A stretch of 64,000 nucleotides of DNA from an endosymbiont of Lamellibrachia barhami. Its GTDB lineage: Bacteria; Pseudomonadota; Gammaproteobacteria; Chromatiales; Chromatiaceae. The translations under genes were made by a program, and so were the position numbers. The stretch lies in assembly GCF_011947365.2 (NCBI RefSeq), contig NZ_JAAVSH020000001.1, positions 121,917 to 185,916 of the forward strand, written 5' to 3'. The notes under the pieces are model-generated. The model was not told where the DNA came from, ran no database searches, and saw only the letters and a program-made list of their open reading frames with translations. Positions 4,747 through 17,577 of the stretch are shown here, in pieces; position 1 is the first letter of the stretch; each line of letters starts with the position of its first letter.

Positions 4747-4890
4747 AGGCAAAAGGCAAAAGGCGAAAGGCGAAAGGAATCAGTTCCCTAAGCCGGCGTC
4801 TTTGTTACCTTTTTTCGCCCCCCCTTGTTGTTTAGATCTGAGTGGAGTTAATCTTGTTAGCCGTTAGCCGTTAGCCGTTAGCCGTTAGCC
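4747..4890. mobile_element. heptamer-array element A (gene-less)
   Basis: The left end is a 7-bp-period array, AGGC(AAAAGGC)2(GAAAGGC), at 4747-4777. The right end is five perfect GTTAGCC units at 4856-4890. The two arrays are roughly inverse complements in their GGC/GCC spacing. The right array ends 2 nt from the sucC stop codon. The core (about 4810-4855) is clearly homologous to element B at 6074-6199. I interpret it as a non-autonomous mobile element in the sucC-sucD spacer. Confidence 0.6.
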
Positions 4891-4892
4891 TT

Positions 4893-6053
4893 CTATGCAG
4901 CCGCTGCGACCGCTTTTTTGGCCGCTTCGGTGAAGTCGGCGGCGGTGATGAAGTCGAGTCCGCTCTCCTCCAGCATCTTCAGCCCCTGTTCGGCATTGGT
5001 GCCTTCCAAACGCACCACAACCGGCACCTGCACGCCGACATTCTTAGCGGCGGTGATGACACCCTCGGCGATCAGATCGCAACGCACGATGCCGCCGAAG
5101 ATGTTGACCAGCACGGTCTTCACCTTGCTGTCGGAGAGGATCAGCTTGAAGGCCTCTGTGACCCGCTCGGCAGTGGCGCCACCGCCCACATCGAGGAAGT
5201 TGGCCGGGTCGCCACCGTGCAGTTTGACCATGTCCATGGTGGCCATCGCCAGACCTGCGCCGTTGACCATGCAGCCGATGCTGCCGTCGAGGGTGATGTA
5301 GTTGAGATCGTGTTTGGCGGCAGCCGCCTCCTTCTCATCCTCCTGACTCGGATCGCGCAGGGCGACGATATCCTGGTGGCGGTAGAGGGCGTTGCTGTCG
5401 ATGTTGATCTTGGCGTCCAGCGCCATCAGGTCACCATCGCCGGTGACGATCAGCGGGTTGATCTCGATCAGGCTGACATCCTTCTCCATGTAGAATCGGT
5501 AGAGACCCATCATGATCTTGCTGAACTGTTTGATCTGGTCGCCTTCAAGCCCCAGGCCGAAGGCGAGCTTGCGGCACTGATAGGGCTGCAGACCGGCTGC
5601 CGGATCTATCACAGTGGTGAGAATCTTCTCCGGTGTCTCCTCGGCGACCTCTTCGATGTTCATGCCACCTTCGGTAGAAGCCATGAAGGTGATACGGGAA
5701 CAGGCGCGATCCAGCAGTGCGCCGAGGTAGAGTTCACGGGCGATGTTACTGCCCTGCTCCACCAGCACCAGGTTTACCGGAAGCCCGTCGGGACCGGTCT
5801 GCTTGGTGACCAGGGTCATGCCGAGGATCTCCTCCGCAGCGGTTTCAACCGCATCCAGACTCTTGGCCAGTATCACTCCGCCCGCCTTGCCCCGACCGCC
5901 GGTGTGGGCCTGGGCCTTGACCACCCAGATTTCGCCGCCAAGCGCCTGGGCTGCAGCCCGTGCATCACTCGGCGTGGAGACCGCCTTGCCCTCGGGGACA
6001 GGGATGCCGTACTCGGAAAAGAGCGCCTTAGCTTGGTATTCGTGTAGATTCAT
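4893..6053 (-). CDS. sucC: succinyl-CoA synthetase beta subunit
   Basis: ATP-grasp beta subunit of 386 aa, close to the 388 of E. coli. It begins [12 protein letters not shown], typical of the family, at ATG 6053 with AGAGGAAG just upstream. An in-frame extension to 6128 reads through repeat DNA and is rejected. The glycine-rich segments GGRGKAGGV and GGIVRCD are present. It pairs with sucD and lies downstream of the kor/PFOR-like genes on the same strand, flanked on both sides by heptamer-array elements. Confidence 0.95.
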
Positions 6054-6073
6054 GATTCTTCCTCTGGAAGAAG

Positions 6074-6199
6074 AGGCAAAAGGCAAAAGGCGAAAGGCGA
6101 AAGGAAGCGTTCCCCAGCGCCAATGCAAAATCTACCTTTTTCACTCCTAGTTGTTTAAATCTGAGTCGAGTTTAATTTGTTAGCCTTTAGCCTTTAGCC
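6074..6199. mobile_element. heptamer-array element B (gene-less)
   Basis: The left array at 6074-6104 is identical over 31 bases to the left array of element A. The right array is GTTAGCC TTTAGCC TTTAGCC at 6179-6199. It directly abuts the stop codon (6200-6202) of the 1505-aa gene. The middle, around 'TTGTTTAAATCTGAGT' (from about 6151), matches element A with few changes. It has no ORF of its own, and it occupies the spacer before sucC. Confidence 0.6.
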
Positions 6200-9100
6200 T
6201 TATCTGTATCCCGCAAGCACCATCAGCCGCTCGCGAATGTGTCCCGCTATCTCCTCCTCCGCGCCTTTGCGAGAGGCGTTGAGCTGCGTCTCGAATTCGG
6301 CCCGGAGGGCGTTGATCTCTGTCTCATGTTCTGCTGCGACACGAACCTCTGCCGCCTGCTCCACGCGGGCGGTGAAGGGTGTGACTATCCCGGCCAGCTC
6401 CTGCAGGGTGCGCCAGGCATCGAGTTGTTCCACCACGACTTGGCCCAACTGCGGATCGACACGGTAGACCTCTGCACTCTCCTCGTTACGGGGTACAGAG
6501 ATGATCGGGGTCTTTTTAGCGCGGCTGGCCGCATCCAGGGCGAGCCAGTCTTCCAGGGCGGTGGGTGCTGAATCATCGTCCGCCAGGGGCCGGAAGCGGC
6601 TGGCGAAGCGGTCTTCAGTCAGTGCCCAGTGAGCGAGAGTGATGACCTGCTGATCGCTGCTGTTGTGTAGCAGGGTGCCCCGCGCCGGATTGCCAGCAAG
6701 ATTGAGGCGAGAGCCGAACACGCCTTCCCCACGGGGATCGTACTGGAATAGCGGAAAGGCCCGGCTGTGTACTGCCAATCTCGCCTGATCCAGGGTCCTG
6801 TCGGTGGCGAAGCCGTGTCGCGCCGGGCTGGGAGTGTGGATGCGCAGCAGCGCCGGACCCTGGAAGGCCAATGCTGCCGAGACGCTCTCCCGCAGATGGG
6901 CTGGGTCGGCAATGCTGGTCTGCGCCACATAAGCATTGCGCTGGGAGAGGGCGAGCAGTCCGAGGTTGCCCTTGGGGTCGCTGAGACGTTGCAGGGGTGC
7001 GTCTTCGAGACCCCGGCTGTCGAGTCCGAAGTCGAGCTCTGTGAGGGTGAGTATCTTGATCGGCAGGCCGGAATTCAGCAGCCAGGCGACCTGGCTGAAG
7101 TTACGCCCGCCGAGGGTCTCTTCGTTACCCACCAGCAGCAGCGGTGGGCAGAGCGCCTTCTCTTCATCGGTGAGATCCTGCCAGCTGAGCAGGTCGGGGT
7201 CGCTGGCATTACGCCCACCCTCCCCCAGCTCGATCTTTGCCTTGCGGACCAGCCGAATCGAGGTGAGAGCCTCCCCTATCTGCCCTTCCAGCAGGCCGGC
7301 AGCGAGCTGGGCGGTTTCGCCGCTGCTGTCCAGCGCAACGGGAACCTGGAAGGGGTTATGCGGAAATGACGCCGCCCAGGTGGCCATAATGCCGGGCGCC
7401 AGCGCGAGACCGTAGCGGGCGCGTCCGAGACCCTGTTGGCCCTCTGTCAGTCGCCAGTGCTGTTCTGTCAGCTGCTGAGCCAGGGTGGTGAGACGGCGCA
7501 GATGATCGGCATCGACACCGCTGTTCTCCAGGCTGCCTTCGGGCTGCCGGGTCAATTCGTTGATGTCGATCTGACCGTCGTCGAGCTCTGCCAGTCTGCC
7601 TGCGAGACGTTCGAGGTCCTCGGTGGGCAGCGCGTCCACCAGGGTCTCCTTGATGGCATCATTCAGCCGCTGCTTGAGTTGTCCTACTTCTCCGGCAAAT
7701 CGGTGCAGCAAAGGCTGCTGACGATATTCGATGGTTGCCAGGGTCAGCCGGACCGCGATCTTCTCGCCGGAGCCGGATTCGGCGCTGTCGCCGCTGGCCA
7801 GCGAGAGCAGACTGTAGCGGGAGAGCAGTTGCGCGGCCATGGTCGTTAAATCGGGATGGGCGGCAACCCGTTCGATGGTCTCGGAGGCAGTGTCAGGCGT
7901 GACTTCCCAGGCGGCCCAGATCTGGTGGCTCTGCTGCAACAGTTCAGGCGTCTGTGGAGCGATGCTCAAGGATTGTGGTTGGCAGGCAGCGATGCAGAGT
8001 CCGCAGGCCTTGCAGGCGTCGGGATTGATACCCAGGGCCAGCAGTTCACCGCCATCTTTTTTCGCCTGTTCACCGGCCTGGAAGAGTGGCTCGGTGACGG
8101 CCAGAGGCAGTGCGCCGTAGAGTTTTTCCAGATCCTTGATACCGCTCTCTGCGGCGCTCCTGCGATCTTTGGCCAGAGGCGCTTTCTCCTGCAGCCAGTC
8201 GAAGGCCTCCCGGATCAGATCCGCCGCGCTACCGCCCTGTATGGCGTTCTGCCGGCCGCGGGCGCTGATTCGTCCACCAAGTTTGGCGGCCAGGGGGCGC
8301 AGGGCGCTGGCTCCGGCAAGGCCGATACCGACATTGATCAGCGTGGTGGGTGAGAGCGCGGTGACGCCAATGGCGCCATCAGGGCACGCGCTCCAGCAGT
8401 CGCCGCAGGCGGTGCAGGTCAGGGGGTCGAACACCGGCAGCAGGCTGCGGCTGCCGCTGTGGTCGCTGAAGGTGGCGGAGAGCGGTGGCACCAAACCGGA
8501 CGCCAGATAGGGGTCGGGTGTGAGGCTGTCGAGGTCGCCGTCCCGATAGAGTATACCGGTCTGGTCCCAGAAGCGGGGCAGACTGTCGTAACTGTCGTTG
8601 TTGCCTGCCAGATGACGGACGGCCATAGGTGTCGGCCTGGGAGCTGCCGCTTCATCTTGGGTGCCGGTTTCCGCGCTGAGGTCGGTGGCAGAGGTCTGTT
8701 CCAGGCCTGTTCTGAAGGCCTCGGTCAGAATCCCCTGTTGAAGATGCTGTTCACGTGTGGTGATGAGCTTGCGGGGCTGTAGCGGCAATTTCTCTTCCGC
8801 AATCAGAACGCTGCAGATTGCACCGAGGCAGGTCTCACGGCGGGTTGTTTCATCCATCCCGCTGGTGGAGGGCATGCGATAGCACTTGAGCCCCCGGCTC
8901 TGGATGGCCTGGCGCAGGACAGGCGAAAGAGGAGATTCGGCGCCCTCTTCGTCTGCTGCCATCAGCAGGCAGCCGCCCCGGGGGAGTTGCCTTGCAGGGA
9001 TCAGTTGCGGATGGTTCAAGGGGCCGTCGAGCAGGACCAGATCCAGGGGCATTTCACTGCCGCAGTCGCGCAACCCTTCGGGGGCCATTACCACCCGGTC

Positions 9101-10725: not shown

Positions 10726-11601
10726 TCAATGGAGCTGGGCATAGCGTTTTTCACTCTCAGCTTGCTCAGACGGCTGGCGGGTAAACTGTCCCTCCTCCAG
10801 CCATTGGATAGCGTTGGTGGGGCAGCGTTTGATGGCGATCTTGGTCATGGGGGCGCCGGAGTCGAGATCGATGGCCGGCAGGTTGTTTCGCATATCGATC
10901 AGGCCTGGGGATGCATCAGCCGCACATTTACCGCAGGCATCACAGCCCACGGAGCAGAGCACGGTTACCGCCTCGCCCTCCAACGGGTTATTGCACTGGA
11001 CGTAAAGTTTCTGGTTCAAAGGCAGGATCTCGAAGAGGTCCTTGGGGCAGGCCTCGACGCAATCTTCGCAGGCGGTGCACTTATCGACATCGACGGTGGG
11101 CAGGCCGTTGGCGTTCATGTGGATGGCATCGAAATCGCAGGAGACCTCGCAGTCAGCCAATCCCAGGCAGCCCCAGGAGCAGCCTTTACCGCCTCCAGAG
11201 ACTGTGGCGGCGGCGCGGCAGCTTTCGAAGCCGTCATATTCGGCGATTTGAAAGGCCTGTGATTTACCGCCGGCACATCTCAGCCGGGCGACCTGCTTGT
11301 CGGCCTGACCGGCATCGACCCCAAGAAAATCGGCAATGGCATCGATGGTGTTCTCATCGGCCACGGTGCAGCCGCTCGGCTGCACACTGCCATCCACCAG
11401 GGCTTCAGCAAAGGGCAGGCAGCCTGGTTCGCCGCAGGCACCGCAGTTGGTGCCGGGCAGCAGATCTTCTGTGGTGGCGATGCGGGGATCCTCCTCCACC
11501 TTGAGGAACTTGTAGGCGACCGCCAGCACCACGCCGAAAAACAGAGCGATGCCTGTCATGATGGCTGGGGCGAGGACAAAATTGGATAGAGTGTCAGGCA
11601 C
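10726..11601 (-). CDS. rnfB: RnfB-like membrane-anchored Fe-S protein
   Basis: 291 aa with an N-terminal membrane helix (IMTGIALFFGVVLAVAY), then the RnfB-type four-Cys domain (GTNCGACGEPGC). Dicluster ferredoxin motifs follow (CTACEDCVEACP and the split CSVGCDACGKC). In Rnf complexes this subunit takes electrons from ferredoxin to the membrane. No rnfA, C, D, G or E is nearby, so it is an orphan placed between two PFOR-like genes. The start is GTG without a clear ribosome site, so the true start may be internal (Met15). It is probably the membrane electron link of the KorAB system (inference). Confidence 0.8.
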   Translation of the reverse strand: MPDTLSNFVLAPAIMTGIALFFGVVLAVAYKFLKVEEDPRIATTEDLLPGTNCGACGEPGCLPFAEALVDGSVQPSGCTVADENTIDAIADFLGVDAGQADKQVARLRCAGGKSQAFQIAEYDGFESCRAAATVSGGGKGCSWGCLGLADCEVSCDFDAIHMNANGLPTVDVDKCTACEDCVEACPKDLFEILPLNQKLYVQCNNPLEGEAVTVLCSVGCDACGKCAADASPGLIDMRNNLPAIDLDSGAPMTKIAIKRCPTNAIQWLEEGQFTRQPSEQAESEKRYAQLH

Positions 11602-11628
11602 GGAGGGATTCTCGTACTCGGGGAAACA

Positions 11629-12200
11629 GGAAAAAGGATAAAGGATAAAGGATCATGTGGGGGCTGTACGTGACTGTTGGCGCACAAAGTTGCGCCTTGT
11701 CCGAATCAATCCGGCAAGCATGACGGAAATCTGTTTTGATTCTGTAATCCATCTTTTTCCAGTCACTGTATCGATATAGCCGATTTTGATGCCAATGTAG
11801 GTCTGTGTGCGCAGTTCGCCGCATGAGCCTTTAGCATATGAGAGGAAGTTCAAACTCTCTTTGAGCGATTCTCTCTCAAAGCCTTCTGCAATATTGCTCG
11901 GAACGGAAAGCCCGCTCCTGCTCAGCTGATCTTTGAAGCTGTAATCCCGGCAATCACGCAGTACTTTGTAAATCTCCACACTCAGACGGGCAGAGCGTTT
12001 CCAAACTTCAAGTTCTTCAAACTGTGTAGTCATCCATGACTCCGAGTTTTAAGTAAGAGACTTAAGGAGCCTCTAAACGAAGTCTGAATCCCAATCTGTT
12101 TCGCCCAGATTTATTCAGAGGCTCCTAACCTTGGGCCAAGGTACCATTCTGGCGTGACCCGCCAATCCCAATTCTTATCCTTTAACCTTTTTCCTTTCGC
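11629..12200. mobile_element. heptamer-array element C carrying a four-helix-bundle gene
   Basis: The left array GG AAAAAGG ATAAAGG ATAAAGG AT covers 11629-11652. The right array, ATCC TTTAACC TTTTTCC TTTCGCC, covers 12177-12200. Both have 7-bp period and inverse-complement character, as in elements A and B. Inside is one gene, whose stop touches the left array. The right array directly abuts the stop codon of the 823-aa gene at 12201. An additional 10-bp perfect inverted repeat (AGGAGCCTCT) lies at 12065-12074 and 12117-12126. Confidence 0.6.
11653..12033 (-). CDS. four-helix-bundle protein (23S rRNA IVS-type)
   Basis: The 126 aa match the family of proteins encoded in 23S rRNA intervening sequences and related loci (TIGR02436). 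They share the typical N-terminal EELEVWKRS, the core SVPSNIAEGFER and the block AKGSCGELRTQ. Family members are small, basic, pentameric helical bundles thought to bind nucleic acid, and they resemble the Avd accessory protein of diversity-generating retroelements. Here the gene is not in rRNA but inside a kor-operon spacer, flanked by heptamer arrays, with the same orientation as the operon. Its stop codon runs straight into the left array. Confidence 0.85.
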   Translation of the reverse strand: MTTQFEELEVWKRSARLSVEIYKVLRDCRDYSFKDQLSRSGLSVPSNIAEGFERESLKESLNFLSYAKGSCGELRTQTYIGIKIGYIDTVTGKRWITESKQISVMLAGLIRTRRNFVRQQSRTAPT

Positions 12201-14672
12201 CTAGTTATATTTCGCCGCCCTTTCAATCAACTCATCCAGCCCTGCTTCGGAGTCGCTGAGGGGTTTCCCCGGATGGATGCAGTCGGAGGGGCAGATCTCC
12301 GCCGCTTCCACCATTTGGGCATAGGTGCCGGCGCTGGCGTCAGCGATGTAGGCCTGGTTCTCGTCGTTGTAGACAAATACCTGGGGATTGATCGCCAGAC
12401 AGTCGTTGCAGGTGGTGCAGAGAACACTGTCGATCCAGGGCTCTTCGCTGCCGAGATCTTCCTCTTCTTCGACAGGCGCCGCAGACGCTTCCGCTGTGGG
12501 TTCTGCCGTGGTTTCCGCAGCTGTTGTGGTTGCATCAGCCGTTGGTGCGGCTGGCATTCGTGGTGCGCCACTGGTGAAGTCCATGCCCAACAGCACTTCG
12601 GTGAGGCGGGACATGACCTCACCGGCAGCTTCGTTGCGTGCCTCGACCAGTTTTTGGTCCTGTTCAGCTGTCAGCGCCTCAATCTTTGCCTCGGCTGCGC
12701 TGTTGATCTCTGCGCGGGCCTCGGCAATGCCTATCTCAAGATAACGGCTGCGAACACCCGCCATCTCCTGCAGGGCGTGCCAGAAATTGAGACGGTCACG
12801 GCAGGCATGGATCAGGGTGCGGCTCACTGCCAATTGGCGCAGCTCGCCCTTGCCGTTGAGGGCAAGGATGTAGGGGATGTGCTGGGCCGACTCTTCTTCC
12901 GGCATGGCCAGATAGTCGGCGATGGGCAGCAGAGAGTCGGTCTCACAGATCAGGGGGACTGGGGTGAAGTGCCCGTGCAGGCGAGGGATCAGTAGTGCAT
13001 AGTCGGCAAAGGTGAAGGCCAGTTCGATAGTCATGGCCTCGCCGTTCTCATCCCGGTAGCTGAATTCGTGAACCGCCCAATCCCTCTCTGGTTGCGGGTT
13101 GCCGCTGAAGTCGACCCGGTCCGCAAAGCTGTCGCCGACGGAGGGATTGATCTGGAAGAAGGGATGAACCCGCCCTTCGAGTGCGGCACCGGCCACCAGC
13201 CAGCCATTGAGTCCCACGTCCTGTCCAGTGGGGCGAAGCCCGACGTTGATGACATGCAGCCCGGTGCGGGTCGCGTCGAGTGCGGTGGAGAATTGATCCA
13301 GGAGGTGCTCGTGCCTTGCCGCCGAGGTCTGGGAGACGAAAGCCTGGCGGTGACTGATGCCGAGGTAACCCAGTTCGGTGCGGAAGTGGGCAAAGGGGTC
13401 TTTGTCGGAGTCCCGGCCGGGATTGGCGTGTCCCAGAACCCGCACCAGGATCTGCACGGGACGACCGGAATTGAGCAGACGGGAGAAGTCGGGCATCGCT
13501 TCACCGGCTACGCGCAGGGCGGTCTCCAGGGCAATGACCGCCGGTACCAGTAGCAGTTCATCGTGGGAGAATGCCTCCCAGTTGAAGGTCTCAAACCAGG
13601 GGTCATGGATGGATTCGTCGTAGAGATCGTCGATCTCCAGTTTGGCAATACGCGCGGCGGCAAAGACTTTGGCAAGGCGCGCCGCCTGTTCGTCGAAGAT
13701 CTCCTTGGCGCGAATACAGGGATTGTCGGAGACGACGCTCTCGAAGCCGGGGATGTCGCCCAGCAGTGTCTCGTCCAGGCCTTCGGTGTGAACAAAGCGT
13801 ACCAGGACCGACTCCCGACCGTAGGATTCCAGCGTCTTCAGCGCCCCTTCCACCCGCTCACGGCGAACTGTTGTCATGCCGATGGAGCCGTGGGAGTGGT
13901 CCATCACATCTGCGAGTGCGTTGGCGTCGAACATGTGGGATGAGTGGCCCACGGCCTCTTCCAGTGCGGCCGGCGCTTTGGCTTCGTCTGATTTTTCCTT
14001 TTCAACCGCCAGCAACAGCTTGAGTCCGCGGATATACTTCTCGATCTCCCGCTGGAAATGTGCATGACGGGGGATCACCTGGCTGCGGATGACGTGGATC
14101 ATCAGATGCAGCGCCGGGTGTTGTCCGTAGGCCAGGAACTGGCCACTCTCGGGGATCGAATCCAGCAGGTCGTGCAGATCACTCTGCAGTTTTTCTGTAC
14201 TGCCGCTGTCGAGCCCCAACTGTTTCACCATCCAGCTGGAGAGCTCGCTGAGCAGGGGTTTTGCGGGTACGGGGGTCTGGCTCTCCTGCAGGGCGAGGCG
14301 CAGAGCCTGCTCGAGACGTGGCAGGTTGTCTTTCAGGATGCGGGCGCTGCCCTCCCCCGGTGCAACAGCCTCGGTGGCTTCAGCCAGAAAGGCTCCCAGA
14401 GGCTTGGCCAGTTCGGCGCCCCGGCGCTCTTCGTCGCCGCCCTCGGCGGGATAGAGAAACAGCGGGTAGTCATAGCGCAGCCGGGAGGCGTCCCGATAGG
14501 GGGCCATCAGTGCGGGCAGAAAGTCGTCACCAAGCGGCTCCAGTTGACCCCTGACGCTGGGATTTCCAAGGTGGAAATGGCGCAGGGTGTGCAAAATCGT
14601 CTTGGTGGCCTCCGCATCCTTGATGGCGGAGGGCATGGCCGGCGTGGATTCGCCTGTCTGTACTGCTGTCAT
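12201..14672 (-). CDS. PFOR-domain-like protein with C-terminal ferredoxin
   Basis: 823 aa. The middle and C-terminal parts (AFVSQTSAARHEHL, HPFFQINPSVG, DRVDFSGNP) align by eye with the end of the 1505-aa protein (AYVAQTS, FPLFQYDP, SRLNLAGNP), so the two are paralogues. A charged coiled-coil region (about 640-700) and an Ala/Thr/Glu linker lead to a C-terminal single [4Fe-4S] domain (CTTCNDC about 755, CPSDC about 795). No TPP motif was found. It follows korB by 27 nt. The likely role is an electron-carrying or regulatory partner of KorAB. I do not know a named family. Confidence 0.65.
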   Translation of the reverse strand: MTAVQTGESTPAMPSAIKDAEATKTILHTLRHFHLGNPSVRGQLEPLGDDFLPALMAPYRDASRLRYDYPLFLYPAEGGDEERRGAELAKPLGAFLAEATEAVAPGEGSARILKDNLPRLEQALRLALQESQTPVPAKPLLSELSSWMVKQLGLDSGSTEKLQSDLHDLLDSIPESGQFLAYGQHPALHLMIHVIRSQVIPRHAHFQREIEKYIRGLKLLLAVEKEKSDEAKAPAALEEAVGHSSHMFDANALADVMDHSHGSIGMTTVRRERVEGALKTLESYGRESVLVRFVHTEGLDETLLGDIPGFESVVSDNPCIRAKEIFDEQAARLAKVFAAARIAKLEIDDLYDESIHDPWFETFNWEAFSHDELLLVPAVIALETALRVAGEAMPDFSRLLNSGRPVQILVRVLGHANPGRDSDKDPFAHFRTELGYLGISHRQAFVSQTSAARHEHLLDQFSTALDATRTGLHVINVGLRPTGQDVGLNGWLVAGAALEGRVHPFFQINPSVGDSFADRVDFSGNPQPERDWAVHEFSYRDENGEAMTIELAFTFADYALLIPRLHGHFTPVPLICETDSLLPIADYLAMPEEESAQHIPYILALNGKGELRQLAVSRTLIHACRDRLNFWHALQEMAGVRSRYLEIGIAEARAEINSAAEAKIEALTAEQDQKLVEARNEAAGEVMSRLTEVLLGMDFTSGAPRMPAAPTADATTTAAETTAEPTAEASAAPVEEEEDLGSEEPWIDSVLCTTCNDCLAINPQVFVYNDENQAYIADASAGTYAQMVEAAEICPSDCIHPGKPLSDSEAGLDELIERAAKYN

Positions 14673-14699: not shown

Positions 14700-15653
14700 T
14701 TAGATCGCGAAGGCGTCGAGAGCGGTGTTGATTGCAGCCAGCTTCTCTTCGTTGGTTTTGTTGAGGCCTTTCGCGGAGAAATCCTCATACACCACGGCGT
14801 CTGGATCATGATAGAGCAGACCCACCGGCAGTTTCGACTCGTCACGGGCGACCTTCATCGCCTCCAACCAGTCTGCAGGATCGTGTTCAATCTGCTCCTG
14901 GAACAGCCGTTTCACATTGTCTTCGGTCGGGATGCCGTTTTCGTGGGTCAGCAGCAGCATATTCTCAGGGTGGTCCTGATAAGGCTTGCAGAAGCTGTCC
15001 GAGAAGACGGGGCAGCGCTGTATGATGCGCACGAAGCTGGTGCCCCGGTGTTTATGGGCGGCCTTGATCGTTTCGTAGAGCAGCGGAGGATTCCAGTCCG
15101 GCACCTGTGCTACGAAGGATACGTTGGTGATGCCCAGAGTTACCGTGAGCGGGTTCATTGCAGGCAGCAGCGAACCTTCTGGATGAGTATTGGTACGTTC
15201 GCCAGTGGGGGTGGTGGGCGAGGTCTGCTTTTTGGTCAGGCCGTAGATGCCGTTATCGAAGATCAATATGACCATATCCATGTTGTAACGCATGGCGTGG
15301 AGCCAGTGACCTCCGCCGATGGAGAAGCAGTCGCCGTCGCCGGTGCCGACCCAGACGTCAAGGTCGGGACGGCGCGCCTTGACACCGTTGGCAAGCGGCA
15401 GGGCGCGGCCGTGCAGACCGTGCAGGCCGTAGGTGCCGACATAGTGGGGCAGGCGGCTGGAGCAGCCGATACCAGAGACGACGACACTCTTCTCCGGTGG
15501 CATCTGGGCATCGCGCAGCACGCGGTGAACGGTGTTGAGTACGGCAAAGTCGCCGCAACCGGGGCACCAGCGGGCTTCACCGCCGGCGTAGTTACCGAGG
15601 GTGAAGTAGCGTTCAAAAACATCGACGGACCAGTCAGCTTTCAATCCAAACAT
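14700..15653 (-). CDS. korB: 2-oxoglutarate:ferredoxin oxidoreductase beta subunit
   Basis: The 317-aa TPP subunit. Cluster-ligand Cys are at 30 and 33 (CPGC), 64 (GIGC) and about 214 (QRCP). The Mg-TPP motif starts at GDGD (105-108) and ends with N134 in FDNGIYGLT. A strong GAGGAG site precedes the ATG, 13 nt after korA. With KorA it would decarboxylate 2-oxoglutarate or fix CO2 onto succinyl-CoA, using ferredoxin. This is a key reductive TCA step. Substrate choice (2-oxoglutarate over pyruvate) is inferred from the SucCD context and KorAB-like architecture. Confidence 0.88.
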   Translation of the reverse strand: MFGLKADWSVDVFERYFTLGNYAGGEARWCPGCGDFAVLNTVHRVLRDAQMPPEKSVVVSGIGCSSRLPHYVGTYGLHGLHGRALPLANGVKARRPDLDVWVGTGDGDCFSIGGGHWLHAMRYNMDMVILIFDNGIYGLTKKQTSPTTPTGERTNTHPEGSLLPAMNPLTVTLGITNVSFVAQVPDWNPPLLYETIKAAHKHRGTSFVRIIQRCPVFSDSFCKPYQDHPENMLLLTHENGIPTEDNVKRLFQEQIEHDPADWLEAMKVARDESKLPVGLLYHDPDAVVYEDFSAKGLNKTNEEKLAAINTALDAFAI

Positions 15654-15666
15654 TTGGCTAATCTCC

Positions 15667-17577
15667 TCAGTTGTTCAGGGCATCGAGCCGCTGGTTGAAT
15701 TCTGCCTGCAGCATACCGGGTTGCAGCGGATGGCCGTAGACCACAGACCAGCAGTCTATGTCGATCAGGGTCTGCGCCCGCAACATCATGGCGAGTTGCG
15801 CATAGCGGCGGTTCTCTTCGGTGATCAGCGGGCCGTTTGGATCATCGCTGTAGTTGATCTCCACCGTCATGACCTTCTTGAATTTGCTGAAGATCTCTTT
15901 CAGTCCCGGCTCCAGTGGTGAGAGGAATCGCAGGTGCAGGGTGGAGATGCTCTTGCCCTGCTCGCGCAGGGTGTCGACCGACTCTTCGATGGCGCCCATG
16001 GTTGAGCCCCAGCCGATGATGAGCAGATCGCCGCCCGCTTCATCGCCATGGACCTTCGGTGGCTTGAGGGTTTTTTGCAGGGCCGCCAGTTTGCGGCTGC
16101 GGTGGGCCATGCTGGTCTGGTTGGTGTCGGAGTCGTAGGCCACCTTACTGCGATCGGTGTGGGAGAGACCGGTCAAGACATATTCGCCATTGCGTTGTCC
16201 TGGGATCGGACGCTGGGAGAGACCCGTGCCTTGGTCCCAGTCGAAGGCCGGTACGGCGTCATCCCAGGGGGACTGATCGACTGGTGCGGAGAGCCACTCC
16301 TCCTGAATCTCAGGGCGGGTGTAGGGCTGTACGCCGGTAGCCAGATTGGCATCGGTGAGCAGAATGACAGGGGTACGGAAGGCCTCCGCCAGCTTGCGCG
16401 CCAAAACCACGAAATGAAAACACTCCTCAATGGTGGCGGCGGCGATGACCACCTTCGGGGCATCCCCCGGCTCGCCGTATATGGAGGAGAGCAGATCAGC
16501 CTGCTCCACCTTGGTGGGCAGGCCGGTGGAGGGACCGCCACGCTGTACGTCGACGATGACCAGCGGTACCTCGGCCATTACCGCAAGACCGATCAGTTCG
16601 GTCTTCAGCGCCATGCCGGGACCCGAAGTGATAGTGCAGGCGGTCTTGCCGGCGTAGGAGGCGCCGAGGGCAAAGCCCATCGCGGCGATCTCATCCTCGG
16701 CCTGATGGACGAAGCCGCCGACATTGTCGAAGACATCCGCAACATAGTGAGTGGCGGAGGTGGCCGGTGTAATCGGGTACATGGAGATCAGCTCCATGCC
16801 CGCCGCCATGACCCCCAGGCCAACCGCCTGGTTGCCATTGGTGATGATGGTCGGTTTGGTCGTGTCAGTGGTGTAGGGTGGAATTTCCCACAGATAGTCG
16901 AGATGTTCAGCGGCGAAGGCGTAGCCAGCGTCAAACAGATCGATGTTGGGCTGGATTACCTTGTCACCCTTGTGAGCGAAGGTGTTGGCGATCTCTTTAC
17001 GCCCCAGATCAGGCTCGCGGCTGAAGATATGACTGATCATGCCGAGTACGAACATGTTCTTGCCCTTGCGGGCATTTTTGACGATCTTCAGGCACGCCTC
17101 TTCCATCGGCAGCTCATGCACGATCAGTCCGTGCTCGGCAAACTCTTTTACCGCTGCGGTGTATTGATTGCGGATCTTCTCGTCGGGATCGGTCTCCCAC
17201 TTGTTTTCCAGCAGAACGATGGTGCCCTCTTTATAGGCGCCGTTGGCTATGCGGGAGAAGAGTACCTGCTCATTGAAGGCGACAACCAGTTCGGCCTCGT
17301 TGCCCATATTCGTAATGTACTTTGAGCCGATGCGAATACGGATGCCGGATGCGCCTGCGGGAGAGCGGGCCGGGGGTTGGATCTCCGCCGGAATGATCTC
17401 AACGGTCCAGACGCCGTTGCCCATCTTACCGCTGATATTGCCGAAGGTCTGGCCGCACTTCTGCGCGCCCTCGCCTGAATCGGAGACGATCTCGACAATA
17501 TATTCATCTACCTTGGCGGCGGTTTTGTTCCCGCCAATCTGCACGGCACTCTCGCCGTTGTCAGCCTGTTGCGTCAT
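15667..17577 (-). CDS. korA: 2-oxoglutarate:ferredoxin oxidoreductase alpha subunit (gamma-alpha fusion)
   Basis: 636 aa. The N-terminal about 190 residues are the gamma domain (GEGAQKCGQTFGNI, then NMGNEAELVVAFNEQ). The rest is the alpha domain, with the pyrimidine-binding YPITPATS, the SGPGMALKTE loop and QRGGPSTGLPTKVEQADL. This gamma-alpha fusion is typical of two-subunit KorAB enzymes. ATG 17577 is preceded by AGGTGG. It is the first gene of the minus-strand run korA-korB-823aa-(IVS gene)-rnfB-1505aa-sucC-sucD, so its promoter should lie in 17578-18062. Confidence 0.88.
   Translation of the reverse strand: MTQQADNGESAVQIGGNKTAAKVDEYIVEIVSDSGEGAQKCGQTFGNISGKMGNGVWTVEIIPAEIQPPARSPAGASGIRIRIGSKYITNMGNEAELVVAFNEQVLFSRIANGAYKEGTIVLLENKWETDPDEKIRNQYTAAVKEFAEHGLIVHELPMEEACLKIVKNARKGKNMFVLGMISHIFSREPDLGRKEIANTFAHKGDKVIQPNIDLFDAGYAFAAEHLDYLWEIPPYTTDTTKPTIITNGNQAVGLGVMAAGMELISMYPITPATSATHYVADVFDNVGGFVHQAEDEIAAMGFALGASYAGKTACTITSGPGMALKTELIGLAVMAEVPLVIVDVQRGGPSTGLPTKVEQADLLSSIYGEPGDAPKVVIAAATIEECFHFVVLARKLAEAFRTPVILLTDANLATGVQPYTRPEIQEEWLSAPVDQSPWDDAVPAFDWDQGTGLSQRPIPGQRNGEYVLTGLSHTDRSKVAYDSDTNQTSMAHRSRKLAALQKTLKPPKVHGDEAGGDLLIIGWGSTMGAIEESVDTLREQGKSISTLHLRFLSPLEPGLKEIFSKFKKVMTVEINYSDDPNGPLITEENRRYAQLAMMLRAQTLIDIDCWSVVYGHPLQPGMLQAEFNQRLDALNN

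Follow-up and report, generated by a model that had tools for sequence, protein, structure and literature searches.

The locus described here raises a question of identity and origin: what is a gene of the type known from insertions in 23S rRNA doing between two genes of a metabolic operon, framed by mirrored arrays of a 7-bp period? It lies in the window, a stretch of 64,000 nucleotides analysed as a whole, from an endosymbiont of Lamellibrachia barhami whose genome (G000, hereafter the host genome) measures 4.17 Mb. A preliminary description had assigned the gene to the 23S-IVS type, had noted that one array touches its stop codon and the other the stop codon of the upstream operon gene, and had suggested a small mobile element whose insertion mechanism was unexplained. 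The anatomy held in every point, and we consider it likely that the locus is a minimal mobile element in which a gene of this family (hereafter IVP) lies between inverted arrays of a 7-bp unit that act as terminal inverted repeats.

The gene product scores 106.3 bits against PF05635 (cut-off 33.8) and 106.9 bits against TIGR02436 (cut-off 24), families with relatives of solved structure (2GSC and 2RLD; profile A1). The distal array, whose letters at 11628-11655 read AGGAAAA-AGGATAA-AGGATAA-AGGATCA (Tandem Repeats Finder rows 11622-11652 and 11628-11653, period 7), runs up to the IVP stop codon at 11653-11655; the proximal array (TTATCCT-TTAACCT-TTTTCCT-TTCGCCT at 12175-12202; Tandem Repeats Finder row 12175-12197) shares two bases with the TAG stop codon at which the upstream operon gene ends (12201-12203). 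At its opposite end, the element stops 20 bp ahead of the GTG start of the RnfB-like gene (Table 1). Among periods 4-12, only period 7 yielded arrays at threshold in the window. A chance origin of the window array is excluded: the window has 11 copies of AGGNNAAAGGNNAAAGG and 100 dinucleotide shuffles have none, and the host genome has 91 + 99 (190), compared with 1 + 0 copies of the reversed pattern. Apart from the IVP gene, the element contains no ORF of at least 80 aa, which agrees with the unexplained mechanism of the preliminary description, and no transposase. It is not inside an rRNA gene but, as had been described, between two oxidoreductase operon genes, and a search of 11400-12400 against Rfam gave no match at E ≤ 0.1, thus neither rRNA nor a group I/II intron structure. 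Its predicted RNA folds 5.7 standard deviations better than shuffles and includes 31 arm-arm base pairs. Like an rRNA IVS, the element carries an IVP/S23 ORF in a segment whose ends are predicted to pair into a stem; like an insertion sequence or MITE, it ends in inverted terminal repeats. Genomes of the genus and the family contain the core of its leader hairpin repeat at other sites too.

Table 1. Features of the window element, its operon and neighbouring array-bounded segments (window coordinates).
Feature	Coordinates	Strand	Remarks
E1, gene-less, array-bounded (AGGCAAA arm and GTTAGCC arm)	4747..4890	.	between the stop of the sucC-like gene (4893-6128) and the next gene
E2, gene-less, array-bounded	6074..6201	.	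ahead of the sucC-like gene
Downstream operon gene, RnfB-like Fe-S protein	10726..11601	-	GTG start
Whole array-bounded IVP element, 581 bp	11622..12202	-	arms paired in predicted RNA fold, z = -5.67
Distal array, AGGNNAA units	11622..11652	.	downstream arm relative to the operon; abuts the IVP stop codon
IVP gene, 126-aa TIGR02436/PF05635 four-helix-bundle family protein	11653..12033	-	family HMMs
Hairpin repeat in the 5' leader of the element	12064..12126	-	
Proximal array, TTNNCCT units	12175..12202	.	inverted copy of the distal arm
Upstream operon gene, 823 aa	12201..14672	-	ferredoxin domain (PF13370) near the C-terminus; ends at the element
2-oxoacid:acceptor oxidoreductase beta gene	14700..15653	-	upstream, co-directional
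2-oxoacid:acceptor oxidoreductase alpha gene	15667..17577	-	upstream, co-directional

Arrays accompany IVP genes as a rule of the family. PF05635 matches occur in 88 of 210 genomes of the host's order, in 78 of them above the cut-off, and we scored a locus as array-bearing when a period-7 array of score 10 lay no more than 250 bp from the IVP gene. Among 30 loci from the best PF05635 matches listed in that order (set 1), arrays lay on the left in 23, on the right in 19, on both sides in 15 and on at least one side in 27; equal windows further out held 3 and 1, and other periods gave 0-2, except for the harmonic 14. Set 2 consists of the best 80 of at least 586 confirmed candidates from an IVP-profile scan of 84,980 species genomes. 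Here arrays lay on the left in 46 loci, on the right in 48, on both sides in 38 and on either side in 56, compared with 3 of 73 and 6 of 69 distal control windows; period 8 reached 7 loci, the remaining non-harmonic periods 0-5, and dinucleotide-shuffled flanks a mean of 0.3 and a maximum of 2 of 80. By our reading, the two-armed loci of set 2 span nine bacterial phyla. Set 3 was framed as a prediction: starting from the GGGAATC arrays of Xanthomonas published in PMC4692102 (available in part), we looked for genomes that bear them. Of 369 genomes, G573 alone had such arrays; GGGAATC-type arms flank its IVP gene, itself a partial domain match, and those of several IVP relatives in its family, where 16 of 22 loci have an array on either side and 12 on both. 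The preliminary description had envisaged that arrays might be absent around other intergenic family members; at least one side bore an array in 27/30, 56/80 and 16/22 loci.

Some redundancy exists in these sets, as L098 = L129 and L101 = L206 (same records) and two loci sit in both set 1 and set 2; L098 and L101, together with loci lacking two arms, were left out of the counts of arm similarity, orientation, unit sharing, folding and junction clusters given below. Array-less loci at threshold number 3/30, 24/80 and 6/22 in the three sets, and one of the loci, on a short contig (L114), has an array nowhere at threshold. Location in rRNA was ruled out as the reason for missing arrays, since none of the 20 array-less loci given to Rfam had an rRNA match nearby. 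At L094:1971-2072, near an IVP element, lie inverted period-8 arrays of the AGTTAAGA type, which suggests related families with another period. L300 (G155:C26:41611-42675) carries a divergent IVP ORF in three tandem copies that look identical and are spaced 375 bp apart; a single heptamer-like array lies beyond them at either end (arms identified by eye). At the level of whole genomes, AGTGG arrays were found in 37/88 IVP genomes compared with 11/122 others, a comparison in which genome size and phylogeny are uncontrolled, some of the arrays are the IVP arms themselves, and the reversed pattern used as control forms arrays of its own type (GGTGANN) in some genomes.

The two arms of an element belong together. 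In 51 of 56 two-armed loci they are more alike inverted than direct, and inverted similarity within a locus averages 0.79, compared with a permuted mean of 0.50 and a maximum of 0.55 in 300 permutations. Units differ from locus to locus. With loci of arm similarity below 0.6 left out, IVP proteins more than 70% identical tended toward a common unit (14 pairs, 0.81 versus about 0.5), and unit and IVP identity were correlated (Mantel r 0.245; p 0.0005, the lowest value that 2,000 permutations allow; related hosts uncontrolled). In the predicted RNA, leaving aside elements above 900 bp, the arms form a stem with a median of 25 bp, and 61 of 67 elements reach at least 14 bp; when a foreign right arm was swapped in, 28 of 67 still did and the median fell to 9. 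These data bear on the view that IVP is an ordinary host gene and that the arrays are unrelated intergenic simple-sequence repeats. In many bacteria long SSRs are indeed most often heptamers (Mrazek et al. 2007, cited from the accessible part of PMC4679880), yet arrays occupy 92 of 158 (58%) 150-bp IVP flanks and only 23 of 130 (18%) other intergenic segments of the same loci (delimited by a simple ORF finder), and the two arms of one locus resemble each other much more closely than arms of different loci do. With the presence/absence and lineage replacement reported below, this view seems hardly tenable to us.

We next consider where the elements sit. Of 130 loci examined, 68 have arrays on both sides and 64 of these have both neighbours called; relative to the IVP gene, both neighbours run with it in 45, both against it in 6, convergently in 8 and divergently in 5 (45 versus 6, p = 2e-8 with every locus counted). 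Because many loci have a junction in common, we clustered them by neighbour similarity, and with one vote for each of the 44 junction clusters the bias persisted (29 with, 5 against, 7 and 3 others; p = 4e-5). The left array starts no more than 10 bp from the upstream stop codon in 38 of 54 loci with a co-directional upstream gene. Where the downstream gene is co-directional (51 loci), its called start follows the end of the right array by 0-25 bp in 35, whereas the array overlaps that start in 13 and lies further off in 3; gene calls for these distances are crude. By eye, the opening AG of the array is often preceded by a T that completes a TAG stop, as in the window. Occupied junctions include accB-accC, yicC-gmk, BREX pglZ-brxL and cas6-cas4, and at nrdB-nrdA the IVP gene runs against the operon. 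The pattern could reflect selection against other positions as well as targeting.

Direct traces of insertion came from plasmids, where one IVP query matched 32 of 72,556 records; the same kind of search with one IVP query gave no match in 50,697 phage records at E 1e-5. In a VirB10 operon of related cyanobacterial plasmids, the element is present in three records, two of them identical, and missing from six at 97.4-97.7% identity, of which two were read and some of which may represent one lineage. The empty allele reads AAAAAGTAA-TTAACAAATAAAT-ATG and the filled allele AAAAAGTAA-[TAAATCAGAATTCAG... IVP ...TTCTTTG]-TAATTAACAAATAAAT-ATG, with the junction ...AAAAAGTAA[TAAATC...CTTTG]TAATTAAC...; the insert measures 428 bp, lies directly after the stop codon and has (G)TAA on both sides, the one plasmid site with an unambiguous short target repeat. 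Because the empty allele at this clean site is free of arrays, arms and gene arrived together. A decayed copy occupies the VirB10-operon site of a further plasmid (L240), and homologous elements of 78-82% identity lie directly after the stop codon at two further plasmid junctions (L246; L247 and L248). At an integrase junction and at the L247 junction, stop and start are 3 nt apart in the three element-free relatives read at each. A TraM plasmid comparison likewise showed presence and absence, without a clean target repeat. Two other comparisons were rejected: cas6/cas4 and nrdB/nrdA plasmid pairs are not clean empty sites, since their junction DNA differs, and two NIES-22 plasmids do not represent one element in two contexts, since their identity spans a block of about 3 kb.

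Chromosomal junctions record turnover. At the window junction, an IVP element is present in all six genomes of the genus; in five genomes of other genera the flanking genes instead overlap in three cases and are separated by 7 nt in one and by 45 nt in another. The six occupants belong to three IVP lineages: the window lineage unites G000 and G002 at 98%, the occupants of G003 and G004 group with G001 by eye, and nucleotide identity of the IVP gene among G000, G001 and G005 is 67-70%, with pS of 0.63-0.82, at or near saturation, while the RnfB-like neighbour is 95-96% identical across sister species (dS 0.16-0.20). An identical fixed position in all relatives, with no empty site, had been named as the outcome that would speak against mobility; three lineages and five element-free genomes were found instead, and, with the filled and empty plasmid alleles, they support the suggestion of a small mobile element. 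The second IVP gene of the host genome (C1:3603006), with short arms of an AGGGCCN unit seen by eye below the array threshold, has no counterpart in G005, and its copy in G002 is decayed. A further genus (11 genomes, eight with both flanks of the junction) shows turnover in the gap downstream of a gene that we take to be cbbQ-like: G125 has one IVP lineage there, and G128 and G130 have a second; G127, G129 and G134 have a different gene, and in G132 and G135 the gap is free of both IVP and arrays. At that junction three species (L281, L283 and L286) carry a Fic-like ORF, recognised by eye, in an unrelated insertion.

Occupancy of the window junction throughout the genus, and the strong predicted folding of the inverted arms, would also fit a domesticated translational or processing device of the host operon, for instance one in which RNase III cutting tunes downstream expression. 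The IVP reading frame is, however, broken in two of the six species (G003 and G004) and the occupant lineage changes, and we hold domestication to be distinctly improbable. IVP genes are under purifying selection: dN/dS is 0.09-0.17 in five of the six pairs that yield a ratio, including 0.09 for the window gene against G002, and 0.86 in the sixth, which has almost no changes.

Array-bounded segments also occur without an IVP gene. E1 and E2, which flank a gene that we take from its translation to be sucC-like (4893-6128), go beyond the array-bounded segment of the preliminary description; their cores are partly alike in the host genome, and in sister species both junctions are occupied by different cores with different arm units. 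Across the window and 31 stretches of the host genome, about 20 arrays pair as AGGNNAA...TTNNCCT, around gene-less cores of about 50-240 bp. These gene-less elements use the unit of the IVP element, exist in many copies and in part occupy similar junctions; apart from the common unit, no sequence common to gene-less and IVP elements of the host genome was noticed by eye. Many of the gene-less cores (L039, L041, L059, L060 and others in the host genome) contain a palindrome (GTAGGCC...GTTCAAGCGTAGCGGAACCGG and its partner), which we presume to be REP-like, perhaps nested RAYT-type repeats. A further array-bounded cassette, 1143 bp long (L035:2012-3154; G000:C1:111911-113053), places another cargo between heptamer arms, namely a TacA1 antitoxin gene (PF08681, 1.4e-16) and, after it, a 174-aa ORF that matches no Pfam family.

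Such segments raise the alternative that the arrays came first, and that an IVP cassette was swapped into pre-existing short array-bounded elements by recombination between arms. One plasmid junction carries either an IVP element (L235/L245) or a gene-less array-bounded element (L244) with a matching left border; given their common outer border, it seems that the interior can also be exchanged between arms. The differing cores of E1 and E2 between sister species, and the TacA cassette, point the same way. Against this order of events stand the array-free empty allele of the clean plasmid site and the geometry of the arms, as insertion into one direct array cannot yield inverted arms; on the same two grounds a pre-existing direct array was ruled out as the IVP target. 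As the origin of the IVP elements we therefore regard it as quite unlikely, and favour joint movement of gene and arms.

What moves the element is less apparent from its gene. In five IVPs the only domain matches were PF05635, weak bAvd and one chance-level TPR model. Through the weak HMM matches, below cut-off in four of the five IVPs (PF22296; best E 4.5e-7, L096) and absent for the window IVP, the family is related to Avd, the accessory protein of DGRs. The IVP-Avd link rests on the PF22296 matches, because IVP profile A1 and the Avd protein of the host gave no significant hhalign alignment. In a DGR, an RT lies beside Avd, whereas no RT adjoins the window element among the neighbours scanned. 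Away from the window element, at L124:1288-3626 (G000:C1, about 718.9-721.2 kb), the host genome has a DGR-like locus with an RT, a bAvd-family protein (PF22296, 2.6e-15) and an FGE-sulfatase-domain protein. A search of the PADLOC anti-phage library with two IVPs gave no match.

These relations bring in a second route of movement, in which IVP-bound element RNA would be copied by a resident RT and integrated, with the arrays arising by RT slippage. The bAvd matches, the prevailing orientation of IVP genes with the operon and the presence of both a bAvd protein and an RT in the host's DGR-like locus are consistent with it, as is the higher frequency of RVT_1 in IVP genomes (70/88 versus 57/122, OR 4.4), although genome size and kinship confound that association. 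However, 18 of 88 IVP genomes have no RVT_1 match, some of them with clear arms (among them G098, G117 and G220); 13 of the 18 are listed as at least 95% complete, three of which (G089, G124 and G132) rest on weak IVP matches. A strict dependence on RT is thus not supported, and given also the non-significant hhalign result we judge retro-mobility to be possible but rather unlikely.

For the mobile unit itself, present or absent between relatives and replaced by other lineages at one junction in our sequence comparisons, the following course of events can be proposed. The operon promoter would supply IVP expression, and since the junction also lies between two reading frames, insertion there would be nearly harmless. 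In the transcript, pairing of the arms would give a stem of about 25 bp, which RNase III could cut by analogy with the rRNA form; the cut would thus release the IVP RNA and leave the flanking cistrons translatable, and because the cistron junction alone is touched, the cost to the host would be low. The IVP, as a relative of Avd, may bind arm nucleic acid and work with an enzyme supplied in trans, either a host replication or repair nuclease or a resident RT. Slippage by 7 bp and exchange between arms would keep the two arrays alike, and gene-less elements with the unit of an IVP element could be its non-autonomous partners.

Seven-bp repeats are familiar from other settings, and cyanobacterial STRRs are one such family. 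Others are described in the accessible parts of two sources: GGGAATC in Xanthomonas and GGGGA(C/T)T in Nostoc (PMC4692102), and TAACTGA in Beggiatoaceae (PMC4679880). In Xanthomonas the arrays often form convergent, that is inverted, pairs (70 and 75 cases), and there and in Nostoc the repeats are given a G-quadruplex or regulatory reading and are 'generally' unassociated with mobile elements (PMC4692102, in part). Both these families and the IVP arms are intergenic 7-bp arrays, but the IVP arms flank a gene; the terms 'S23' and 'four helix' have 0 occurrences in the main texts of PMC4679880 and PMC4692102. The partial texts of PMC4679880, PMC4692102, PMC4990558 and PMC11270868 read heptamer repeats as SSR, G-quadruplex or regulatory sequences and IVSs as rRNA elements. 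The literature found, in which subscription papers and bioRxiv are poorly covered, never ties heptamer arrays to S23/IVP genes outside rRNA and contains no description of IVP operon elements.

The rRNA form is nonetheless close. The available text of PMC4990558 describes the IVS of Coxiella 23S rRNA as 428 nt long, with terminal inverted repeats that form a 28-bp stem, heptameric repeats (GACAGAT) directly 5' of the S23p ORF and cleavage by RNase III in vitro, and rRNA IVSs in general as sporadically distributed, with mobility suspected in the 1990s. A stem of 28 bp, equal to four heptamers, together with the repeats amounts to the anatomy of IVP elements. IVSs with an S23p/IVP ORF (Coxiella; Leptospira) have the protein family name in common with the operon elements, but they lie inside 23S rRNA helices, whereas the operon elements lie between stop and start codons of coding operons, with many different array units and with filled and empty sites as evidence of mobility. 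MITEs, REPINs and IS elements are similarly small and intergenic, with inverted terminal repeats and a short target repeat (for IVP at one site), but IVP elements have no identified transposase partner (the search in trans covered RVT_1) and end in tandem heptamer arrays whose sequence varies by element.

Together, these results make the mobile unit and its anatomy well supported, and IVP elements probably form a transposase-less mobile class, with rRNA IVSs likely included; judged by this analogy, the simplest inference is that rRNA IVSs would be members that landed in rRNA. We extend a more tentative reading, to which we give slightly less than even credence: that this is a categorically new transposase-less class in at least nine phyla, in which IVP recognises its own arms and moves them, with or without the gene (as in gene-less elements and toxin-antitoxin cassettes), into stop/start junctions of operons, and which is the common source of rRNA IVSs and many heptamer families. 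Operons such as accB-accC, yicC-gmk, nrdB-nrdA, BREX pglZ-brxL and cas6-cas4 can hold a one-gene insert between cistrons. For any genome, the prediction follows that its IVP arms should use a unit that is also one of those in its dispersed heptamer arrays. IVP elements may thus be the source of orphan 23S-rRNA IVSs and of many 7-bp repeats, which would unite the origin and mobility of rRNA IVSs, the role of TIGR02436 proteins and the origin of abundant 7-bp repeats in one testable question.
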